Source: Nitrosotalea sp. | Lineage (GTDB): Archaea > Thermoproteota > Nitrososphaeria > Nitrososphaerales > Nitrosopumilaceae | DNA length: 63,091 nt | Direction of reading: 5' to 3' | Assembly (NCBI GenBank): GCA_029850515.1 | Contig: JARCRW010000029.1 | Span: 1-63,091 of the forward strand | Part shown: positions 7,558 through 16,755 of the stretch, piece after piece | Position numbering within the stretch: position 1 is the stretch's first letter | How the letters are laid out: each line of letters starts with the position of its first letter | The notes under the pieces: model-generated | The model's input: the letters and a program-made list of their open reading frames with translations, nothing else | What the model was told of the DNA's origin: nothing | Databases searched by the model: none | Position numbers and translations under genes: made by a program

Positions 7558-8700
7558 TTAGGACTTGATGGACGGATTTTTGAATTCGTGTAATCTTCGC
7601 AAGTGGGACAACATTCTCTTGAAAACTTCAATGCTTCTTAGAAACTCGTCCGTTGATACTCTTTCGTCAATTGTATGTGATGCGTGAGGATCTCCTGGTC
7701 CATATGTAACAACTGGTATGTTTAGCGAGTTTCCTATTATGTTCATGTCACCTGTGCCTGTCTTTCGAATTAGTTGCGGTCTTGCCTTTTCTACGTCCAT
7801 TATTCCCAATGTCAGCGCCCTTACAAGCGGAGAACTATGCGGCGCCTCAAAAGGTTCGGTCTCATCTATTACAGAATAAAATGCATTAACTCCTTGTTTT
7901 TTTGCAATCTCTTGAACTGTTGTTGCAATTCTTTCTCCGACCATTTTACAATTCATGTTTACTGGGATTCTGATATCCATTATTGCATCACACTCTAGTG
8001 GTGTTACATTGTGACTGCTGCCACCCTTGATTTCAGTAAGAGATGATGTAAGCATCATGCTCTTTGCTATGCCCTCTTGGTTCTGCTCTAGCGATTTTTT
8101 TAGCGCACTGGTAAATACATATGATTCCTCAATTGCATTTTTTGCAAGCCATGGTGCACTTGCATGTGCACTGTCGCCTACGTTTACCCTCAGGTTTATT
8201 GCAATTCTACCCTTGTATGCAATTGTAATATTTTTAATTCCACTTGGCTCTCCAAATATTGCGTAATCTATCTCTGGCTTTTGTTTTACCAGACTCTTGA
8301 TTCCTGTAGCATTTCCTTCTTCATCTACCACTGCTGCAAATGTTATTGTTCCATTGTTGTTGCCCTGGACTGATGCTGCTGCAAGGAGCATAGAAATTAA
8401 AGGTGCCTTGGCGTCAGATGCACCTCGTCCATAAATGAATCCGTTCTCATTTCTTACCTTTATCTTTCCTGGAACTGTATCCATATGCCCGCATAACATT
8501 ATTCTTGGATATCCAGAACCCTTTGTAGCGATAAGATTTCCAACATCATCTATACGAATATCCTCAAATCCAAAATCATCACACTTGTCTGCTAAAAATT
8601 CTGCGAGTGGTTTTTCTGAAAGAGATGGTGTGTAAATCCTCAGGGCCTTCTCTAGCACTTTTACTGAATACCTTGGTGTACTAGTTACTGACGAGTCCAA
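7558..8700 (-). CDS. lysK: [LysW]-lysine / [LysW]-ornithine hydrolase
   Basis: 380 residues, M20-family zinc peptidase. Metal-site motifs are MLCGHMDTVPG (His, Asp), GRGASDAKAPL (bridging Asp), and VVDEEGNATG (the catalytic and metal-binding Glu pair). A late TGTGDMNIIGN stretch matches the LysK/ArgE pattern. It releases lysine, and in archaea also ornithine, from the C-terminal glutamate of the carrier LysW. It begins three bases after the stop of lysX and is the last gene of the homocitrate synthase-lysW-lysX-lysK unit. Only one such hydrolase is seen, so it probably serves both the lysine and arginine branches. Confidence 0.93.
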   Translation of the reverse strand: MDSSVTSTPRYSVKVLEKALRIYTPSLSEKPLAEFLADKCDDFGFEDIRIDDVGNLIATKGSGYPRIMLCGHMDTVPGKIKVRNENGFIYGRGASDAKAPLISMLLAAASVQGNNNGTITFAAVVDEEGNATGIKSLVKQKPEIDYAIFGEPSGIKNITIAYKGRIAINLRVNVGDSAHASAPWLAKNAIEESYVFTSALKKSLEQNQEGIAKSMMLTSSLTEIKGGSSHNVTPLECDAIMDIRIPVNMNCKMVGERIATTVQEIAKKQGVNAFYSVIDETEPFEAPHSSPLVRALTLGIMDVEKARPQLIRKTGTGDMNIIGNSLNIPVVTYGPGDPHASHTIDERVSTDEFLRSIEVFKRMLSHLRRLHEFKNPSIKS

Positions 8701-8703
8701 TTC

Positions 8704-9552
8704 TTATTTTCCTAGATTTACTGCGTAATCAATCATCATTGCTGGTATATTTACGCCAGTAACTCTGACAGTATTTTTGTATTCCGTTGTATTGTTTACT
8801 TCGTGTACCACAAGACCATTTTCCTTACTTTCCATTAGATCTACTCCGACTATTTGCCCCTGAACTGCCTCTTTTGCCTTGATGCAGATATCTTCTAATT
8901 CTTTTGTGACTTTGAGTTCCTCCGCCCTGCCGCCAAGTGCCATGTTTGTCTTCCACTGATCTTCTCCCGAATAGCGATAAATTGCAGCAACTACTCTATC
9001 TCCTATTACAATTGCTCTAATGTCACGTGGAGGCCTGTTAACAAATTCTTCCAGGTAGTATACTTGATAAATTGGATACATACTCTCTCTGCTTTCTATT
9101 ATTGCCTCTGCCGATTCCTTGTCTTTTATCATGGCAATCATTCTTCCCCAACTACCCACGGTTGGTTTGATCACCATTGGATATCCTCTTTTGTCAAGAA
9201 GATCAAGTGCAGATTCTTGTGAAAACGCAACCGCACTAAATGGAGTTGGTATGCCTTTTTTCAGCAAAAGCATGTGAGTAAATAATTTGTTTCCTGCAAA
9301 GATGCTAGTATTCAAGGAATTGATCACGTTGACTCCTTTTCCTTCAAGTGCTGCAGTAGAATGAAGACTACGGTAATAACTCACACATCTCTGTATTACT
9401 ATACCATGATCTTCCTTACTTTTATCTAAATTAATGGATAAATTCTTACAGTCTACCATCTTTGTATTGATGCCTTTCTCCTTGGCAGCATCAAAGAGTG
9501 CTTTTTCTTCCCACCTGATGGTATCGTAGAGAATCGATAAACCTGAGCTCAC
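8704..9552 (-). CDS. lysX: LysW-alpha-aminoadipate ligase (ATP-grasp)
   Basis: 282 residues, ATP-grasp fold. The chain runs from LSILYDTIRWEEKAL through ERKD-type strands, GYPMVIKPTVGSWGRM (the phosphate-binding loop) and YYLEEFVNRPPRDIR, to VVHEVNNTTEYKN (metal site). It joins alpha-aminoadipate to the C-terminal residue of LysW. The substrate-specificity region reads DQWKTNMALGG. From memory of the LysX/ArgX literature, a Trp before xTN marks aminoadipate ligases, while the paralogue at 14528 has GGFKTN. The GTG start overlaps the lysW stop (GTGA), and lysK follows by three bases. The position after homocitrate synthase supports the lysine branch. Confidence 0.9.
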   Translation of the reverse strand: MSSGLSILYDTIRWEEKALFDAAKEKGINTKMVDCKNLSINLDKSKEDHGIVIQRCVSYYRSLHSTAALEGKGVNVINSLNTSIFAGNKLFTHMLLLKKGIPTPFSAVAFSQESALDLLDKRGYPMVIKPTVGSWGRMIAMIKDKESAEAIIESRESMYPIYQVYYLEEFVNRPPRDIRAIVIGDRVVAAIYRYSGEDQWKTNMALGGRAEELKVTKELEDICIKAKEAVQGQIVGVDLMESKENGLVVHEVNNTTEYKNTVRVTGVNIPAMMIDYAVNLGK

Positions 9553-9713
9553 TGGCCCCAGTCCTCACCAACAGATTGTGCTGGTTTTAACTCAAAGCCG
9601 GAGGATCCTTTGACAAGTTCAAAACTTGCACCGCAATCGGGACAGGTTACTATCTCTCCTTCCATCGAATCCTGTGGAGGGTTGATGTTTGCGTCACATT
9701 CTAAACATTTCAT
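9549..9713 (-). CDS. lysW: Amino-group carrier protein LysW, C-terminus ending in Gln
   Basis: 54 residues, exactly the size of known LysW. It has an N-terminal MKCLECD and a CPDCGASFEL zinc-ribbon half (four Cys), followed by an acidic linker. It ends GEDWGQ before TGA. Known LysW proteins end EDWGE, and the side chain of that last Glu carries the growing substrate; here the last codon is CAG. The start ATG lies one base after the homocitrate synthase stop, and the stop overlaps the lysX GTG, so the gene is tightly coupled within its operon. A sequencing error in CAG versus GAG is possible but there is no sign of it. Confidence 0.92.
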   Translation of the reverse strand: MKCLECDANINPPQDSMEGEIVTCPDCGASFELVKGSSGFELKPAQSVGEDWGQ

Positions 9714-9714
9714 A

Positions 9715-10905
9715 TTATTTTCCTGTTTTTACCTTCACTTCGGTGTCATTAATTATCTTTCGTTCAAGTCTGTCATCAAGTGGTATTTCAAGCAAATCTC
9801 CCATCCTGAGATTCTTCAGGCCAGCTGCCACTGCCTTTGCATGGGTTTCATTTTGTTCAAGACCTAATAACGACATCAAGTATGCCGCACCGTTTTTTCC
9901 TGCGAGTTCTCCAAAGACAATCCTTCTCCTGTTTCCTACTACCTTTGGCTCAATTGGCTCATATGCAGCGGGGTTTCTCAAAATAGCTGCTAGGTGTGTT
10001 CCAGCCTTGTGTTTGTAAGCAGTAGGTCCAACAATTGGCTTTGAATCGTAGGGTACAATTGTGGTATATTGTTCAATTAGCCTTGAGAGGTCCATGAGCA
10101 TGTCTAGTCTGAAATTATTTGGAGACTTGTACAGATATGTCAAAGCAACAGCTGTTTCCGCAAGTGCGGGTATTCCAGTCCTTTCTCCTATCCCATCGAT
10201 TGTTGTATGAATCTGGTCTGCGCCACCATCGCATCCTGCTAACGCATTTGCAAGCGCAAGTCCAATGTCATTATGACAGTGGACATCAAGTGGAGTTTTT
10301 ATTTCATCACGAATTGATTTTACAAAATTGTACATTCCGTTTGGTCTCATTATTCCTACAGTGTCTGGCAAACTGATCCTGTCAGCACCTGCATCAGAGA
10401 TTGCCTTGCAGACCTGCATTAGAAACTCTGGGTCTGCCCTACTACCGTCCTCCACTGTAAATCGCATCTTGAGGCCATGTGATTTGGCATATTCTACTGT
10501 TTCAACTGATCTTCGCAATGCTTCCTCTCTTGTTATTCTTAGCTTGTCCTTCATGTGAATTTCAGAAATACCAAGATATGTTGCCATCCATGTTGCATCG
10601 CAATCTATTGCAACATCTACATCTTCTTTTAATGCTCTAACATGTGCGACAATGTCTGCCTTCAATCCTTGCTTGATGATTGTCTTTGTTGCTTCTTTGT
10701 GATCTGGTGATACCACGGGTGATATCTCAATTTGGTCTACTCCAAAATAATCCAACATCCATGCAATCTGGATTCTTTGTTTGTTTGAAAAAGTAACACC
10801 AGGATGCTGTTCTCCCTCTCTTAGTGTACTGTCAAGTATTCTAATTTTCTTTGGTTTTACACCCATTTCGTTGTATTGGTATGCGTAATAGTTTGCGTCG
10901 TCCAT
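9715..10905 (-). CDS. Homocitrate synthase (LeuA-family)
   Basis: 396 residues. The DRE-TIM metallolyase motifs are clear: RILDSTLREGEQHPGV at about 23-38, LPDTVGIMRPNGMYN at about 178-192, and DVHCHNDIGLALANALAG at about 203-220 (the HxH metal site). It condenses 2-oxoglutarate with acetyl-CoA to homocitrate, the first step of the aminoadipate route to lysine. The family also holds isopropylmalate and citramalate synthases, but it lacks a long C-terminal regulatory domain and is followed at once by lysW and lysX, which settles the lysine role. A TATA-like box at 10932-10945 fits transcription from about 10912. Confidence 0.9.
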   Translation of the reverse strand: MDDANYYAYQYNEMGVKPKKIRILDSTLREGEQHPGVTFSNKQRIQIAWMLDYFGVDQIEISPVVSPDHKEATKTIIKQGLKADIVAHVRALKEDVDVAIDCDATWMATYLGISEIHMKDKLRITREEALRRSVETVEYAKSHGLKMRFTVEDGSRADPEFLMQVCKAISDAGADRISLPDTVGIMRPNGMYNFVKSIRDEIKTPLDVHCHNDIGLALANALAGCDGGADQIHTTIDGIGERTGIPALAETAVALTYLYKSPNNFRLDMLMDLSRLIEQYTTIVPYDSKPIVGPTAYKHKAGTHLAAILRNPAAYEPIEPKVVGNRRRIVFGELAGKNGAAYLMSLLGLEQNETHAKAVAAGLKNLRMGDLLEIPLDDRLERKIINDTEVKVKTGK

Positions 10906-11022: not shown

Positions 11023-11442
11023 TTATGTGACTGTACGCAATATTATGACAGTGTTTGTATCAAACACACCTGGGACCTTTCGCAATTCATCAATGCATAC
11101 ATTGATGTCTGTAATTGTGGGTGCCTTGATTATTGTAGCAATGTCATACTGCCCTGTTATTTCAAATACTGTGTGAACTCCATGTAGTTTAGAAAGTTTT
11201 GCGGATACCTTTGATGTATCAGTTGATGAATCAACTGAGATCAAAATTATGGCACTTGTAGAATTTGCATCTCCTGTTTCGATTGTAAATTTTTTAATTA
11301 TTCCTCCATCTGTAAGATTCTTCACTCTTCTCCTTACTGCAGATTCTGATAGTCCAAGTTTTCCCCCAATTTCTACAAATGATTGTCTCGAGTCTTTTTT
11401 TAATATCTCAATTATTGTCTCGTCTGTTTTGTCTCTAGACAC
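11023..11442 (-). CDS. lysM: Lrp/AsnC-family regulator, LysM type
   Basis: 139 residues, the usual Lrp size. Residues 1-55 hold the helix-turn-helix: DETIIEILKKDSRQSFVEIG, then GLSESAVRRRVKNL. Residues 65-139 are the RAM ligand-binding domain (VHTVFEITGQYDIATIIKA). In Sulfolobus, LysM controls the lysW-lysX-lysY-lysZ genes in response to lysine. Here it is the last gene of lysY-lysZ-lysJ-lysM, overlapping lysJ by eight bases, and sits directly upstream of the homocitrate synthase promoter, so it could control both units. Its own site is not proven; see the repeated ATATTCGT words downstream. Confidence 0.88.
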   Translation of the reverse strand: MSRDKTDETIIEILKKDSRQSFVEIGGKLGLSESAVRRRVKNLTDGGIIKKFTIETGDANSTSAIILISVDSSTDTSKVSAKLSKLHGVHTVFEITGQYDIATIIKAPTITDINVCIDELRKVPGVFDTNTVIILRTVT

Positions 11443-12610
11443 TTCTTCGCTGCTCCTCCTTTGTTAGTATTACATCTAGAGTTTCTAAAGCTTTGTTTAT
11501 GTCAGACTCTGATATGACTAGAGGAGGTAACAATCGGAGTATGTTCTTGCCAGAATAAAGCAAGAGTAGATTATTTGCAATTCCGTCAAACAATATGTCC
11601 TTTACTTCGAACTTCATCTCAACACCGATCATCAAGCCCTTGCCTCTTATCTCCCTGATTATCTTGTGTTTTTCTTTCAGTCTCTCCAACCCATCCCTGA
11701 ATATCTTTCCATTCTTGTCCGCATTTTCAACTAGCTTGTCTTCTACGAGTGCATCAATTGCCCCAATTCCTGCTGCACATGACAATGGGTTGCCACCAAA
11801 TGTAGAAGATTGTTCTCCCTTGCTAATTGAAGCCAAGATGTCTGGTCTTACTAGTGTTGCACCCATTGGTACGCCTCCTGCAATACCCTTTGCAAGACAC
11901 ATTATGTCTGGTACTGTATCCCAATGTTGACTTGCCCACATCTTTCCAGTCCTTCCAAGGCCTGCCTGAATTTCGTCAAACACTAGAACAATTCCCTTTT
12001 CATCACATAATTTTCTGACTTGTTGTAAAAATCCATCTGGCGCAACATTGATTCCACTCTCTCCCTGGATTGGTTCCATGATCACCATTGCTGTGTCAGA
12101 ATCCACGGTATTTCGCAATGCTTCAATATCGCCAAATGACGAAAAACTCACCGAGTCAACAAGCGGTTCAAAGGCCTTGCGATATTTTTGATTGAATGTA
12201 ACTGACAATGCACCAAGTGATTTTCCATGGTATGAACCGTTCATTGCAACCATTTTTTTCTTTCCTGTAAACTTGCGTGCAAACTTGATTGCGGCTTCTA
12301 CTGCTTCTGTTCCACTATTGTTTAGGTAGACCTGACTTAGATTCTTTGGTGAAATTTTTATCAATTTTTCAAGAAATTCTTCTCGTGTCTTGTTGTAAAG
12401 TGAACTGTGTACTGTGATTATTTTATCAAGTTGATTTTTTATTGCCTTTACTACTCTGGGATTACAGTGACCGACCAATGCAACGCCATAGCCTCCCATG
12501 CAATCCAAGTATTCTTTTCCATTTATGTCCCATACATGAGCTCCTAGTCCACGTTCTATTGTTACGGGAAATCTCTGATAGATATTTCCCATGAATTGAT
12601 CTTCTGTCAT
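11435..12610 (-). CDS. lysJ: [LysW]-aminoadipate semialdehyde/glutamate semialdehyde transaminase
   Basis: 391 residues, class III PLP-dependent aminotransferase of the acetylornithine group. Visible motifs are YLNNSGTEAVEAAIKFAR, VLVFDEIQAGLGRTG (the Asp that binds the PLP ring N), and MCLAKGIAGGVPMGA with the PLP Lys in AKG. It uses glutamate to aminate the LysW-bound semialdehyde, giving LysW-lysine or LysW-ornithine. The start overlaps the lysZ stop by four bases and its end overlaps lysM. Only one copy is present, consistent with a dual lysine/arginine role. Confidence 0.93.
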   Translation of the reverse strand: MTEDQFMGNIYQRFPVTIERGLGAHVWDINGKEYLDCMGGYGVALVGHCNPRVVKAIKNQLDKIITVHSSLYNKTREEFLEKLIKISPKNLSQVYLNNSGTEAVEAAIKFARKFTGKKKMVAMNGSYHGKSLGALSVTFNQKYRKAFEPLVDSVSFSSFGDIEALRNTVDSDTAMVIMEPIQGESGINVAPDGFLQQVRKLCDEKGIVLVFDEIQAGLGRTGKMWASQHWDTVPDIMCLAKGIAGGVPMGATLVRPDILASISKGEQSSTFGGNPLSCAAGIGAIDALVEDKLVENADKNGKIFRDGLERLKEKHKIIREIRGKGLMIGVEMKFEVKDILFDGIANNLLLLYSGKNILRLLPPLVISESDINKALETLDVILTKEEQRRSV

Positions 12611-13407
12611 CTTGATATCACCGTACAGTTATGGTGAGCAATTGCTGCAGATATTGGGTTTTCCTTTTTGCCATTTGCAATAAGTGCCTCCTTGACGCCC
12701 ATTTCTAATGCTTCTGTTGCAGCAAGAATCTTTTTTTCCATGCCAAATCCAATCTTTGGCAGGATCTCTTTTGCCTCTACCAATGACAGTTTTTCGACCA
12801 GCTTTTCTTCCATGAGTAAACCGTCTACATTTGTAAGAAATAGTATCTTATCAGACTGCATCTTGCCTGCTACATATGCAGCTGCCCTGTCTCCGTCAAC
12901 GTTGAGAAAATCACACTCTTCACTGATTGCGATGGGGGATATCACTGGAACATACCCTTGGTCTAATATGGACTGAATCAACCCCGTATTGATATTTTGT
13001 ATCTTTCCAGTATAGCCACCATCTATTACCATCTTGCGACCCTTTTCATTCATTACCATTAATTTCTTTTTTCGTTCAGCTTGAATTATCTTGCCATCTA
13101 TTCCTGAGAGGCCAACTGCATTGATTCCATGTTTTTGGAGCATGCCTACTATCATCTTGTTTATTTTTCCTGACATGACCATCGTAAATATCTCTACAGT
13201 CTCTTTATCGGTAAACCTACTCTTGATTCCTCCTGGAGATACAATGAATTTTTGTTCTTTTCCCAATGCTTCTGAAATTTTCGTTACCTCTTTTCCTCCA
13301 CCATGTACCAAAATGAGTTTTTCCTTCTCTGAGACTTTTTTTATATCTGCTATTGTAGTAGGATGAAGACCATCTACCACACTTCCTCCTATCTTTATTG
13401 TAATCAT
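12607..13407 (-). CDS. lysZ: [LysW]-aminoadipate/[LysW]-glutamate kinase
   Basis: 266 residues, amino-acid kinase family, like N-acetylglutamate kinase. It begins ITIKIGGSVVDGL and contains LILVHGGGKEVTKI (nucleotide and substrate glycines), VGLSGIDGKII, and NVDGDRAAAYVAGKM. It phosphorylates the free carboxylate of the LysW-bound substrate. lysY lies four bases upstream and lysJ overlaps its end by four bases. The single copy should act on both LysW-aminoadipate and LysW-glutamate. Confidence 0.93.
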   Translation of the reverse strand: MITIKIGGSVVDGLHPTTIADIKKVSEKEKLILVHGGGKEVTKISEALGKEQKFIVSPGGIKSRFTDKETVEIFTMVMSGKINKMIVGMLQKHGINAVGLSGIDGKIIQAERKKKLMVMNEKGRKMVIDGGYTGKIQNINTGLIQSILDQGYVPVISPIAISEECDFLNVDGDRAAAYVAGKMQSDKILFLTNVDGLLMEEKLVEKLSLVEAKEILPKIGFGMEKKILAATEALEMGVKEALIANGKKENPISAAIAHHNCTVISR

Positions 13408-13411
13408 TTTT

Positions 13412-14464
13412 TTACACAGGAGTTAGCGGGGTATACGCGATTCCTTCCATCTCGTTGAATCCTGCCATGACATTCATGTTTTGGATTGCAGAGCCTGCTG
13501 CACCCTTCATGAGGTTATCTGATGCTGAAAGAACTACAATTCTGTTATTGTCTTCATCAATGTCAAATCCTACATCACAAAAGTTTGAACCGACAACAAA
13601 CTTTGGATCTGGGAATTTGTAAAACCCTTTCTTGTCACGGATTAATCTGATGAATTTTTCATTTTGGTATTGTTCACGATACATCTTCCATAACTCCATC
13701 TCGGTTACCGGTTGTTTGAGAAAGACATGGTTTGTGCAAAGAATTCCTCTTACAATATCTACTGCATGTGGGCTCATTGATACCTTGATCTTGGTTCCTG
13801 CTGCTTGGCTTAGCTCTTGCTCTATCTCTCCGGTATGTCTGTGTTTTGCTGGTTTGTATGGTCTGATTACGCCTGATCTCATTGCATGATGTGTACCTGA
13901 GACAGTTCCTGCACCTGCACCCGATGAACCAATTTTTGAATCAACTACAATGTGTTCTGTATCAATAATGTTCTTTTTGATCAGTGGGTATAATCCAAGA
14001 ATTGATGTTACTGCCATGCATCCTGGGCATGATACGATCTGTGATTTTTTTATCTCTTCTCTGTGAAGTTCTGGAACTCCAAAGACTGATTTTTCTAGCA
14101 ATTCTGGGTGTGGATGTTGCCAACCATACCACTTGTCATAATCTGCAGGATTGTGCAACCTATAGTCTGCACTAAGATCAATTACTTTCATTCCTCTGTC
14201 ATAGAGTGCCTTTACAATATCTACTGCAGTTCCATGTGGTACTGCAGTAAACACCAGATCACACTTGTCTGTTAGTTTATCATAATCAAGTTCTGAAAAT
14301 GTCAAGTCTGTAAATCCCTTCAAGCTTGGCTGGATTCTAGAAATATACTCTCCAACATATTGTCTTGAAGTTACCATGGAGATCTCTGCATGTGGGTGAC
14401 TTACAAGTAGTCTGAGAATTTCTCCACCGACATACCCTGATGCTCCTACTACACCTACTTTCAT
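13412..14464 (-). CDS. lysY: [LysW]-aminoadipyl/glutamyl phosphate reductase
   Basis: 350 residues, ArgC-like NADPH-dependent semialdehyde dehydrogenase. The Rossmann start is MKVGVVGASGYVGGEILRLL. The catalytic Cys lies in VSCPGCMAVTSILGLYP, and the conserved His is in the GTHHAMRSGV and HRHTGEIEQEL regions. It reduces the acyl phosphate made by LysZ to the LysW-bound semialdehyde. It has its own TATA box at 14488-14500 and leads lysY-lysZ-lysJ-lysM. The 63-base gap from argX separates it from the argG-lysW-argX unit. Confidence 0.94.
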   Translation of the reverse strand: MKVGVVGASGYVGGEILRLLVSHPHAEISMVTSRQYVGEYISRIQPSLKGFTDLTFSELDYDKLTDKCDLVFTAVPHGTAVDIVKALYDRGMKVIDLSADYRLHNPADYDKWYGWQHPHPELLEKSVFGVPELHREEIKKSQIVSCPGCMAVTSILGLYPLIKKNIIDTEHIVVDSKIGSSGAGAGTVSGTHHAMRSGVIRPYKPAKHRHTGEIEQELSQAAGTKIKVSMSPHAVDIVRGILCTNHVFLKQPVTEMELWKMYREQYQNEKFIRLIRDKKGFYKFPDPKFVVGSNFCDVGFDIDEDNNRIVVLSASDNLMKGAAGSAIQNMNVMAGFNEMEGIAYTPLTPV

Positions 14465-14527: not shown

Positions 14528-15385
14528 TTATCGCTTGGCGTAACTTATTGCATAGTCGATCATTTCTTTTGGTATGTTTCTTTTGGCAACTTTTGCAAGT
14601 CCCTTAAACTCAACTGTGTTATTTACTTCATGTACCACAAATCCACGTTTTTCGTCTTCCATCACATCAATTCCCAATATTCCGCCTCCTACTGCTTTGG
14701 ATGCCTTCATGCAAATGTCTTCCAAGTCCTTTGTAATTTCACATGCAATTGGTTCTGCACCAAGGGCAATGTTTGTCTTAAAGCCACCTGTAGATGTTCT
14801 GTACATTGCCGCGATCAGCTGATCTCCCACTGATATAGCTCGTATGTCTCTTGGGGGACGTTCCACGACTTCTTGTAAATAGTAAATCCTGTCCAATGGC
14901 CCATCATTTAGTTCTCTTACCTCTATTATTGCATCTGCAGTCTCTCTATTTCTTAAGGGCACAACACCTCTTCCCCAACTTCCTATGATTGGCTTTATCA
15001 CGAGGGGATAGCCGTCTTTTTCCAATGTCTCTATTGCAGCTTCGGATGAAAATGTAAAGTATGTTTTTGGAGTGGGTACGTTGTGTTTTTTTAACAACAA
15101 TGATGTTAACATCTTGTTTCCACAATTATTTGCAACCTCCATCCTGTTAATTACTGGTATATCTAAAAATTCCAAGGCTGCTGTAAAATGAAGACCACGA
15201 AAGTAACTAACGCATCTTTCTAAAACGACATCTCCGAAATCATAATTATTTTTCTTACTTTCAGTGGTAAACTGAGTAGTTTTAGCATCGATCATCTTCG
15301 TATCATGTCCAAGCTCGATTGCTTTTTGTTCGAGCATCTTTTCCTCTAGTCTTACTCTATCGAACACAATTCGAACTTTGGGCAT
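14528..15385 (-). CDS. argX: LysW-glutamate ligase (ATP-grasp), arginine branch
   Basis: 285 residues and clearly paralogous to the ligase at 8704. It has VRIVFDRVRLEEKML, GYPLVIKPIIGSWGRGV, YYLQEVVERPPRDIR and VVHEVNNTVEFKG. The specificity region reads TSTGGFKTNIALG, with Phe where the other paralogue has Trp. I recall GF-x-TN as the ArgX (glutamate-selecting) signature. It follows directly after a second lysW and argG, which supports the arginine branch: it would attach glutamate to LysW as the first step to ornithine. The assignment of ArgX versus LysX rests on context plus this motif. Confidence 0.85.
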   Translation of the reverse strand: MPKVRIVFDRVRLEEKMLEQKAIELGHDTKMIDAKTTQFTTESKKNNYDFGDVVLERCVSYFRGLHFTAALEFLDIPVINRMEVANNCGNKMLTSLLLKKHNVPTPKTYFTFSSEAAIETLEKDGYPLVIKPIIGSWGRGVVPLRNRETADAIIEVRELNDGPLDRIYYLQEVVERPPRDIRAISVGDQLIAAMYRTSTGGFKTNIALGAEPIACEITKDLEDICMKASKAVGGGILGIDVMEDEKRGFVVHEVNNTVEFKGLAKVAKRNIPKEMIDYAISYAKR

Positions 15386-15553
15386 TTACTCTCCCCAATC
15401 TTCGCCAACTTTCTCAGCATGCTTTAATTCACATACGCCACCATTCTTAGAAGCAATCTCAAAATCTGCCCCACAATCAGGACATGAGACTATCTCTCCA
15501 ACACTTGCGTCGTCTGGAATTTTTATTATTGCATCACATTCTGGACAATTCAT
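15386..15553 (-). CDS. lysW: Amino-group carrier protein LysW, second copy
   Basis: 55 residues from ATG 15553. It begins MNCPECDAIIKIPDD, has CPDCGADFEI, and ends in the canonical GEDWGE, whose last Glu is the attachment site. A GTG at 15568 is in frame and would overlap the argG stop, but the ATG is preceded by GAGGTGA at a good distance and matches the start of other LysW proteins. The stop is immediately followed by the argX ATG with no gap. This copy should carry glutamate for arginine synthesis; compare the Gln-ending copy at 9549. Confidence 0.92.
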   Translation of the reverse strand: MNCPECDAIIKIPDDASVGEIVSCPDCGADFEIASKNGGVCELKHAEKVGEDWGE

Positions 15554-15564
15554 TCTTTGATCAT

Positions 15565-16755
15565 TCACCTCTTTTTTAGTAATTTATTAGCTTCTGTTGA
15601 TTGAAGTCCCCATAGCTCAACGAATCCTTTTCCAAGAGTCTGATCGAAAGTTGAACCAGCTCCATATGTTGCCAGATCATGGCTATACAATGAATATTCT
15701 GATTTTCTTCCAACAACTCTGAGGCTTCCTTTGAACATTTTGAGCTTGACAGTTCCGCTAACCCTCTTTTGTGTAGCATTGATAAACATATCTAAATCTG
15801 ATTTTAGCGGATCTTGCCACAGTCCAGAATATGCAAGCCATGACCATTCTGCATCAACCATTGCCTTGAACTTTAACTCGTGTTTTGTCAAAACCATTTT
15901 TTCAAGATCAGTATGTGCCTCAATAATGCATGTAGCACCAGGTGTCTCATAGACTTCCCTTGATTTTATACCTACTACTCTGTCTTCGATGTGGTCTACA
16001 ATTCCGACTCCGTTTGCACCTGCTTTTTTGTTGATGTATTTGATTAGTTCAATTGATTTCATACGTTTTCCATCAACTGTAACGGGTATTCCATTTTCAA
16101 ATTTTATTTCTAAATATTGTGGATTCTCTGGCAAATTTTTTGTCTTGACCCAGATGAATGCATCATCCGGTGGCTCTGAAAATGCATCTTCCATGTCTCC
16201 ACCTTCAATTGCTCTTCCCCACAAGTTTTGATCAATACTGAATCTTTTTGCGGCGGTATCGATTGGTATGTTGTGTTTTTGTGCATATTTCAATTCTACA
16301 TCTCTCGTGAGATTGAGATCACGTATTGGTGCAATGATTGGAAGATTAGAACCTGAACGATACGTGACATCAAATCTTACTTGATCATTTCCTTTTCCTG
16401 TACAGCCATGTGCAAGTACTGATGCGTTTTCTTTTTCTGCAACTTCTACTACTTTTTGCGCAATCAATGGACGTGCAAGTGCCGTTGCAAGGCAATATTT
16501 TTTTTGGTATAAGGCATTTGCCTTGATGGCTGGAAAAATAAAACTGTCTACAAACTCTTGTCGTGCATCAATGTTGTAATGCTTTAAAACACCAAGACTT
16601 TTCGCCTTGGCTGAAATTTTTTTTAAATTATCCTCTTGGCCAACATCGACTGTAACTGTTATCACGTCAAGATTGTGTTTTTCTTGAAGATATTTTATCA
16701 CGACAGAAGTATCAAGTCCGCCTGAGAAAGCTAGAACTGCCTTTCCTTTCATCAT
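15565..16755 (-). CDS. argG: Argininosuccinate synthase
   Basis: 396 residues, full family length. The N-type ATP-pyrophosphatase P-loop is VLAFSGGLDTSVVIKYL at about residues 7-23. Family stretches LAHGCTGKGNDQVRF and WGRAIEGGDMEDAF follow, and it ends FVELWGLQS. It joins citrulline and aspartate using ATP. No argH or ornithine carbamoyltransferase lies in the window. It leads the argG-lysW-argX unit. The first of two ATG codons (ATGATG) is taken, with a TATA-like stretch at 16783-16795 about 30 bases upstream. Confidence 0.96.
   Translation of the reverse strand: MMKGKAVLAFSGGLDTSVVIKYLQEKHNLDVITVTVDVGQEDNLKKISAKAKSLGVLKHYNIDARQEFVDSFIFPAIKANALYQKKYCLATALARPLIAQKVVEVAEKENASVLAHGCTGKGNDQVRFDVTYRSGSNLPIIAPIRDLNLTRDVELKYAQKHNIPIDTAAKRFSIDQNLWGRAIEGGDMEDAFSEPPDDAFIWVKTKNLPENPQYLEIKFENGIPVTVDGKRMKSIELIKYINKKAGANGVGIVDHIEDRVVGIKSREVYETPGATCIIEAHTDLEKMVLTKHELKFKAMVDAEWSWLAYSGLWQDPLKSDLDMFINATQKRVSGTVKLKMFKGSLRVVGRKSEYSLYSHDLATYGAGSTFDQTLGKGFVELWGLQSTEANKLLKKR

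Follow-up and report, generated by a model that had tools for sequence, protein, structure and literature searches.

An archaeal LysW-type amino-group carrier with an encoded C-terminal Gln

The window, by which we mean the whole 63,091-nucleotide stretch of DNA analysed here, is close to Candidatus Nitrosotalea by comparison with named relatives and encodes two amino-group carriers together with their pathway enzymes. A homocitrate synthase-like gene is followed by lysW, lysX and lysK; upstream lie argG, argW, argX, lysY, lysZ, lysJ and a gene for an Lrp-type regulator. The features are as follows.

7558-8700, minus strand: lysK, M20-family [LysW]-lysine hydrolase and candidate deamidase (TIGR01902, 260 bits, cut-off 163.1; 5xoy, E = 1e-44)
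8704-9552, minus strand: lysX, ATP-grasp ligase (TIGR02144, 344 bits, cut-off 275.6; similar to 3vpd and 5k2m)
9549-9713, minus strand: lysW, carrier ending in EDWGQ (last codon CAG, stop TGA; NF041070 and PF21344)
9715-10905, minus strand: homocitrate synthase-like gene upstream of lysW, assigned by position
11023-11442, minus strand: Lrp-type regulator within the cluster, kept in most relatives
11435-12610, minus strand: lysJ/argD aminotransferase (TIGR00707, 430 bits, cut-off 410)
12607-13407, minus strand: lysZ, [LysW]-aminoadipate/glutamate kinase (NF010662, 297 bits, cut-off 194)
13412-14464, minus strand: lysY/argC reductase, common to both pathways (TIGR01850, 427 bits)
14528-15385, minus strand: argX, ligase adjoining argW (49% identity to lysX)
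15386-15568, minus strand: argW, second carrier, ending in EDWGE (NF041070, 88 bits)
15565-16755, minus strand: argG, argininosuccinate synthase, upstream of argW (named from sequence and neighbours; gene order kept across families)

The product of the gene at 9715-10905 falls short of the curated cut-offs of the models for LysS and isopropylmalate synthase alike, and position alone assigns its substrate.

Translation of 9549-9713 yields a LysW of 54 residues, MKCLECDANINPPQDSMEGEIVTCPDCGASFELVKGSSGFELKPAQSVGEDWGQ, that ends in EDWGQ, as the preliminary description had read it, and the second copy at 15386 is an ArgW ending in EDWGE. The LysW matches NF041070 with 83.3 bits (cut-off 75) as far as profile position 57 of 57, and the Pfam zinc-ribbon model for LysW, PF21344, also matches. 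Like the LysW and ArgW carriers of T. thermophilus, Sulfolobus, T. kodakarensis and Natrinema, it has the Zn-ribbon domain, fits the carrier profile over its full length, bears the EDWG tail and shares an operon with the same partners (LysX/ArgX, LysZ, LysY, LysJ and LysK). Unlike theirs, which end in a Glu ligated through its gamma-carboxyl, it has Gln encoded last (CAG-TGA); the LysW sequences of three solved structures (3vpb, 3wwl and 5k2m) all end in EDWGE. The product of 9549-9713 is a carrier of the LysW/ArgW type in which, as encoded, Gln replaces the substrate-bearing Glu.

The GTG start of lysX overlaps the lysW stop as CA-GTG-A (window 9549-9552). We rejected the idea that this overlap imposes Gln, because GAG-TGA preserves the GTG start and is used by two genomes (G119 and G275), and because Gln ends also occur at loci without the overlap. 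Read-through past the stop to lengthen LysW is not favoured either, as TGA, TAA and TAG are all seen after Gln. The lysW stop is TGA in all 31 rows compared from the family that we label f1.

The Gln end is widespread. Of 300 genomes searched from the class, 211 contain EDWGQ followed by a stop and none matches the reversed-pattern control, and every sampled genome of the window's genus has the Gln codon, with one match per genome. The preliminary description had allowed that the Gln might be a sequencing error, or that relatives might all carry Glu at this locus. Conservation across the class shows that it is not a sequencing error, and the same-genus genomes dispose of the second possibility. 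Nor is the Gln end a peculiarity of one lysW, since it recurs in lysW and argW across many lineages. Within the class, matches are confined to families f1, f2 and f3; the pattern search of the 300 genomes found none in the sampled families f4-f22. Gln-ended carriers include records of Nitrosopumilus, Nitrosopelagicus, Nitrosotenuis, Nitrososphaera, Nitrosocosmicus and Nitrosocaldus (G118), all of them ammonia oxidizers; genus names for our group codes are partly deduced from near-identical sequences, and G111, G129 and G135 were placed as Nitrosocosmicus by carrier identity to named records. Phylum-wide, the pattern was also found in families f29, f30, f35, f53 and f56, and a Gln-ended LysW adjoining LysX was confirmed in the last four. 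The f29 match (G338) has no recognisable LysW at the matched place, and the LysW of that genome ends in Glu. At L257-L283, in f30, f35, f53 and f56, the Gln-ended LysW lies outside the ammonia-oxidizer families, and sisters from its own genus or family end in Glu.

Lineages differ in which carrier bears Gln. LysW and ArgW end in Gln and Glu, respectively, in most of f1 and in g26 and g23; both end in Gln in g15, g28, g25, g46 and g48, and Nitrososphaera-type genomes likewise have two Gln-ended carriers. Both end in Glu in G119, G275, G165 and the sampled families f4-f20. The paralogue states are reversed, with LysW Glu and ArgW Gln, in g30 and G204; loci L124, L165/L166 and L163/L164, of G148, G203 and G204 respectively, show this reversal. 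A fixed code of Gln for lysine and Glu for arginine was rejected on the reversal in g30 and G204 (f3), the two Gln ends of g28 and g15 and the two Glu ends of G165. Sister genomes are also split, G428 having Gln and G393 Glu, and G420 and G440 having Gln and G366, G400 and G445 Glu. Our survey of non-haloarchaeal archaea comprised 307 LysW/ArgW ORFs, 219 of them distinct (140 Gln, 79 Glu, a ratio biased by loci that were picked by the Gln pattern). Among these 307 ORFs there was no third C-terminal residue, an absence that is unbiased in the loci found by whole-protein search.

On a tree of LysX/ArgX (129 rows), other classes of the phylum included, the state switches between Glu and Gln at least 14 times, and nine independent Glu/Gln pairs lie on well-supported branches; this is a quick tree with some long branches, and the figure of 14 changes belongs to it. 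In each of the 14 changes C and G are exchanged at the first position of the terminal codon, while the second base is unchanged and the third is A or G only, so that CAG, CAA, GAG and GAA are the only last codons over all rows. Given this restriction and the occurrence of Glu and Gln only, a side chain with a gamma-carbonyl appears to be needed at the terminal residue. Within f1, the terminal lysW codon changed twice at its first base, versus ten changes at the third base of the Gly codon before it. LysW keeps Gln and ArgW keeps Glu there, and changes are far rarer than at neutral sites, which suggests that selection holds the two states and that Gln and Glu are not freely exchangeable.

In several genomes the only carrier ends in Gln. 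Each of the closed Nitrosocosmicus-type genomes G111, G129 and G135 encodes a single LysW, Gln-ended, and one full-length carrier, likewise ending in Gln, was found in G325, G428 (both closed) and six g78 genomes. Where no other carrier exists, a Gln-ended one cannot be redundant. G111 and G129 (L117 and L118) have lost argW, so that argG abuts argX, and have kept both argX and lysX; one Gln-ended LysW must therefore serve both ligases. ArgJ was absent from all 13 genomes tested, and LysA from the window's genome and from G046, G325, G353, G428, G318, G332 and G404. All five Nitrososphaeraceae tested (G111, G129, G135, G143 and G162) encode a LysA-like decarboxylase, which matched with an E of about 1e-70 but stayed under the curated cut-off; it was not found in the genomes tested from Nitrosotalea or Nitrosopumilus. 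For the Nitrososphaeraceae, the arginine argument is therefore stronger than the lysine one.

The ligases show no matching change. Among 1235 column/residue states of LysX/ArgX, none tracks the Glu or Gln end (the best does so in about four of the nine independent pairs), and co-varying ligase residues were rejected on this ground; the comparison rests on nine pairs, and a small or varied adaptation could escape it. The GSWGR motif, which serves tail recognition, is kept beside Gln and Glu carriers alike. Ligases that had come to face a different chemical group should share some change. Most simply read, LysX and ArgX seem to meet the same end, Glu, in Gln lineages too.

We lean towards a model in which the Gln-ended LysW is a working carrier and its Gln a pro-form, converted to Glu by deamidation ahead of loading, with LysK as a possible agent. 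The carrier would serve lysine synthesis and, in certain lineages, that of arginine as well. Once LysW has been translated, hydrolysis of the gamma-amide at its C-terminal Gln would give Glu, to which LysX (or ArgX) would then ligate aminoadipate (or glutamate) by the known chemistry. Deamidation is the step we infer; LysK as its agent is less certain, but would be the most economical choice. LysK normally frees lysine or ornithine by cutting the amide that joins the amine of either to the terminal gamma-carbonyl of LysW. Binding of the LysW tail and hydrolysis of the LysW-gamma-Glu-NH-R bond are both within its existing repertoire; to release NH3 from LysW-Gln it would cleave that very bond, with the smallest leaving group. 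All 23 genomes examined encode LysK, and its metal and catalytic motifs are 97-100% intact beside Gln carriers. By profile and intact motifs, the LysK of the window is an ordinary member of the LysK/ArgE-DapE group of M20 hydrolases, for which LysW-Gln deamidase activity would be new. However, LysK is known to release amino acids, not ammonia, and M20 enzymes usually hold the departing amino acid by its carboxylate. As a ubiquitous enzyme, LysK also fails to account for the high frequency of Gln in ammonia oxidizers and its absence from the sampled families f4-f22.

The case for a pro-form draws on the conservation of Gln, its place on the sole carrier of some genomes, the restriction to Glu and Gln, the unchanged ligases and the finding that an E54A change in Natrinema ArgW is non-functional, causing arginine auxotrophy and showing the terminal side chain to be essential (PMC10433800). 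The separate states of f1, which are not freely exchangeable, argue against it. LysK is suggested by its presence and intact motifs and by the precedent of Dop, which deamidates Pup-Gln and also cleaves Pup off its substrates (PMC8599861); one enzyme can thus carry out both deamidation and conjugate removal, a pairing that the proposed role of LysK would mirror. The parallel with actinobacterial pupylation, drawn in the preliminary description, holds in its logic, as Pup is a small protein ligated through the gamma-carboxyl of a C-terminal Glu that is encoded as Gln or Glu according to species. It does not extend to the machinery: Pup is unrelated to LysW, and its enzymes are glutamine-synthetase-like and without a homologue in the Gln-type genomes tested (PF03136 in 0 of 17, with a positive control that worked).

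Alternatively, a dedicated amidase encoded outside the operon could deamidate LysW-Gln, with LysK uninvolved. This would draw on all of the evidence for deamidation, and a separate enzyme would account for Gln being common in some clades only. As candidates, Dop/PafA was rejected on the absence of PF03136, and CheD because it is patchy, missing from 12 of the 17 genomes, among them the closed sole-carrier genomes G111, G129, G135, G325 and G428. Among the genes sought in the sampled operons there was no additional conserved hydrolase, and we consider a dedicated amidase unlikely.

The Gln-ended carrier might also be used without prior deamidation. LysX and ArgX could act on Gln directly, for example by phosphorylating the amide oxygen to give an amidine-linked or transamidated carrier; phosphorylation of this kind has been proposed for Dop acting on Pup-Gln (PMC8599861). 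The known reaction requires a carboxylate, however, ligases beside Gln and Glu carriers are not consistently different, and an amidine product would presumably demand matching changes in LysZ, LysY, LysJ and LysK, which makes direct use of Gln improbable. A linkage to the alpha-carboxylate of the terminal residue, leaving the side chain nearly irrelevant, has a model in RimK-family relatives, which make alpha linkages. Such a linkage is very unlikely, since other end residues would then be expected where only Glu and Gln are seen, the E54A carrier is non-functional, and a gamma linkage is reported for the carriers of T. thermophilus, S. acidocaldarius and T. kodakarensis (as cited in PMC10433800). 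Loading without deamidation by one of these routes, direct handling of Gln or alpha-carboxyl attachment, would be of a type not described before, and we think it distinctly unlikely. Indirect synthesis of Gln-tRNA is established in archaea, where tRNA-Gln is charged with Glu first and amidated later, and a minor, working form of LysW might receive Glu at CAG in this way; this is extremely unlikely, as most of the carrier would be left idle and both CAG and CAA are in use. That the Gln copy is a non-carrier (a decoy or regulator) while the Glu copy serves both pathways would fit the Glu-ended ArgW of the window, but is largely refuted by the Nitrosocosmicus-type and several other genomes whose only carrier ends in Gln, and by the two Gln-ended carriers of Nitrososphaera-type genomes, and we give it next to no credence.

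The Gln-ended form is a variant of a known carrier system. The string EDWGQ was not found in the open-access literature (subscription papers lay outside the search), nor was an open-access paper found that links LysW and lysine biosynthesis with ammonia-oxidizing archaea. For Nitrosopumilus maritimus, a metabolic model takes in an added LysW route, in passages that make no remark on the carrier end (PMC6038301).

The C-terminal Glu is usually treated as essential and invariant in amino-group carrier proteins. Marine and soil ammonia-oxidizing archaea, a large and abundant group, instead encode Gln, as do other archaea here and there; this has come about repeatedly, apparently under selection, and extends to genomes with no other carrier. 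Either a maturation step in a basic amino-acid pathway has been missed, or these archaea use a new ligase chemistry or load the carrier in some undescribed way. If Gln is a pro-form, LysW would provide a second, unrelated case of the logic known from Pup, and if it is deamidated, ammonia would be a product of carrier maturation in organisms that oxidize ammonia.
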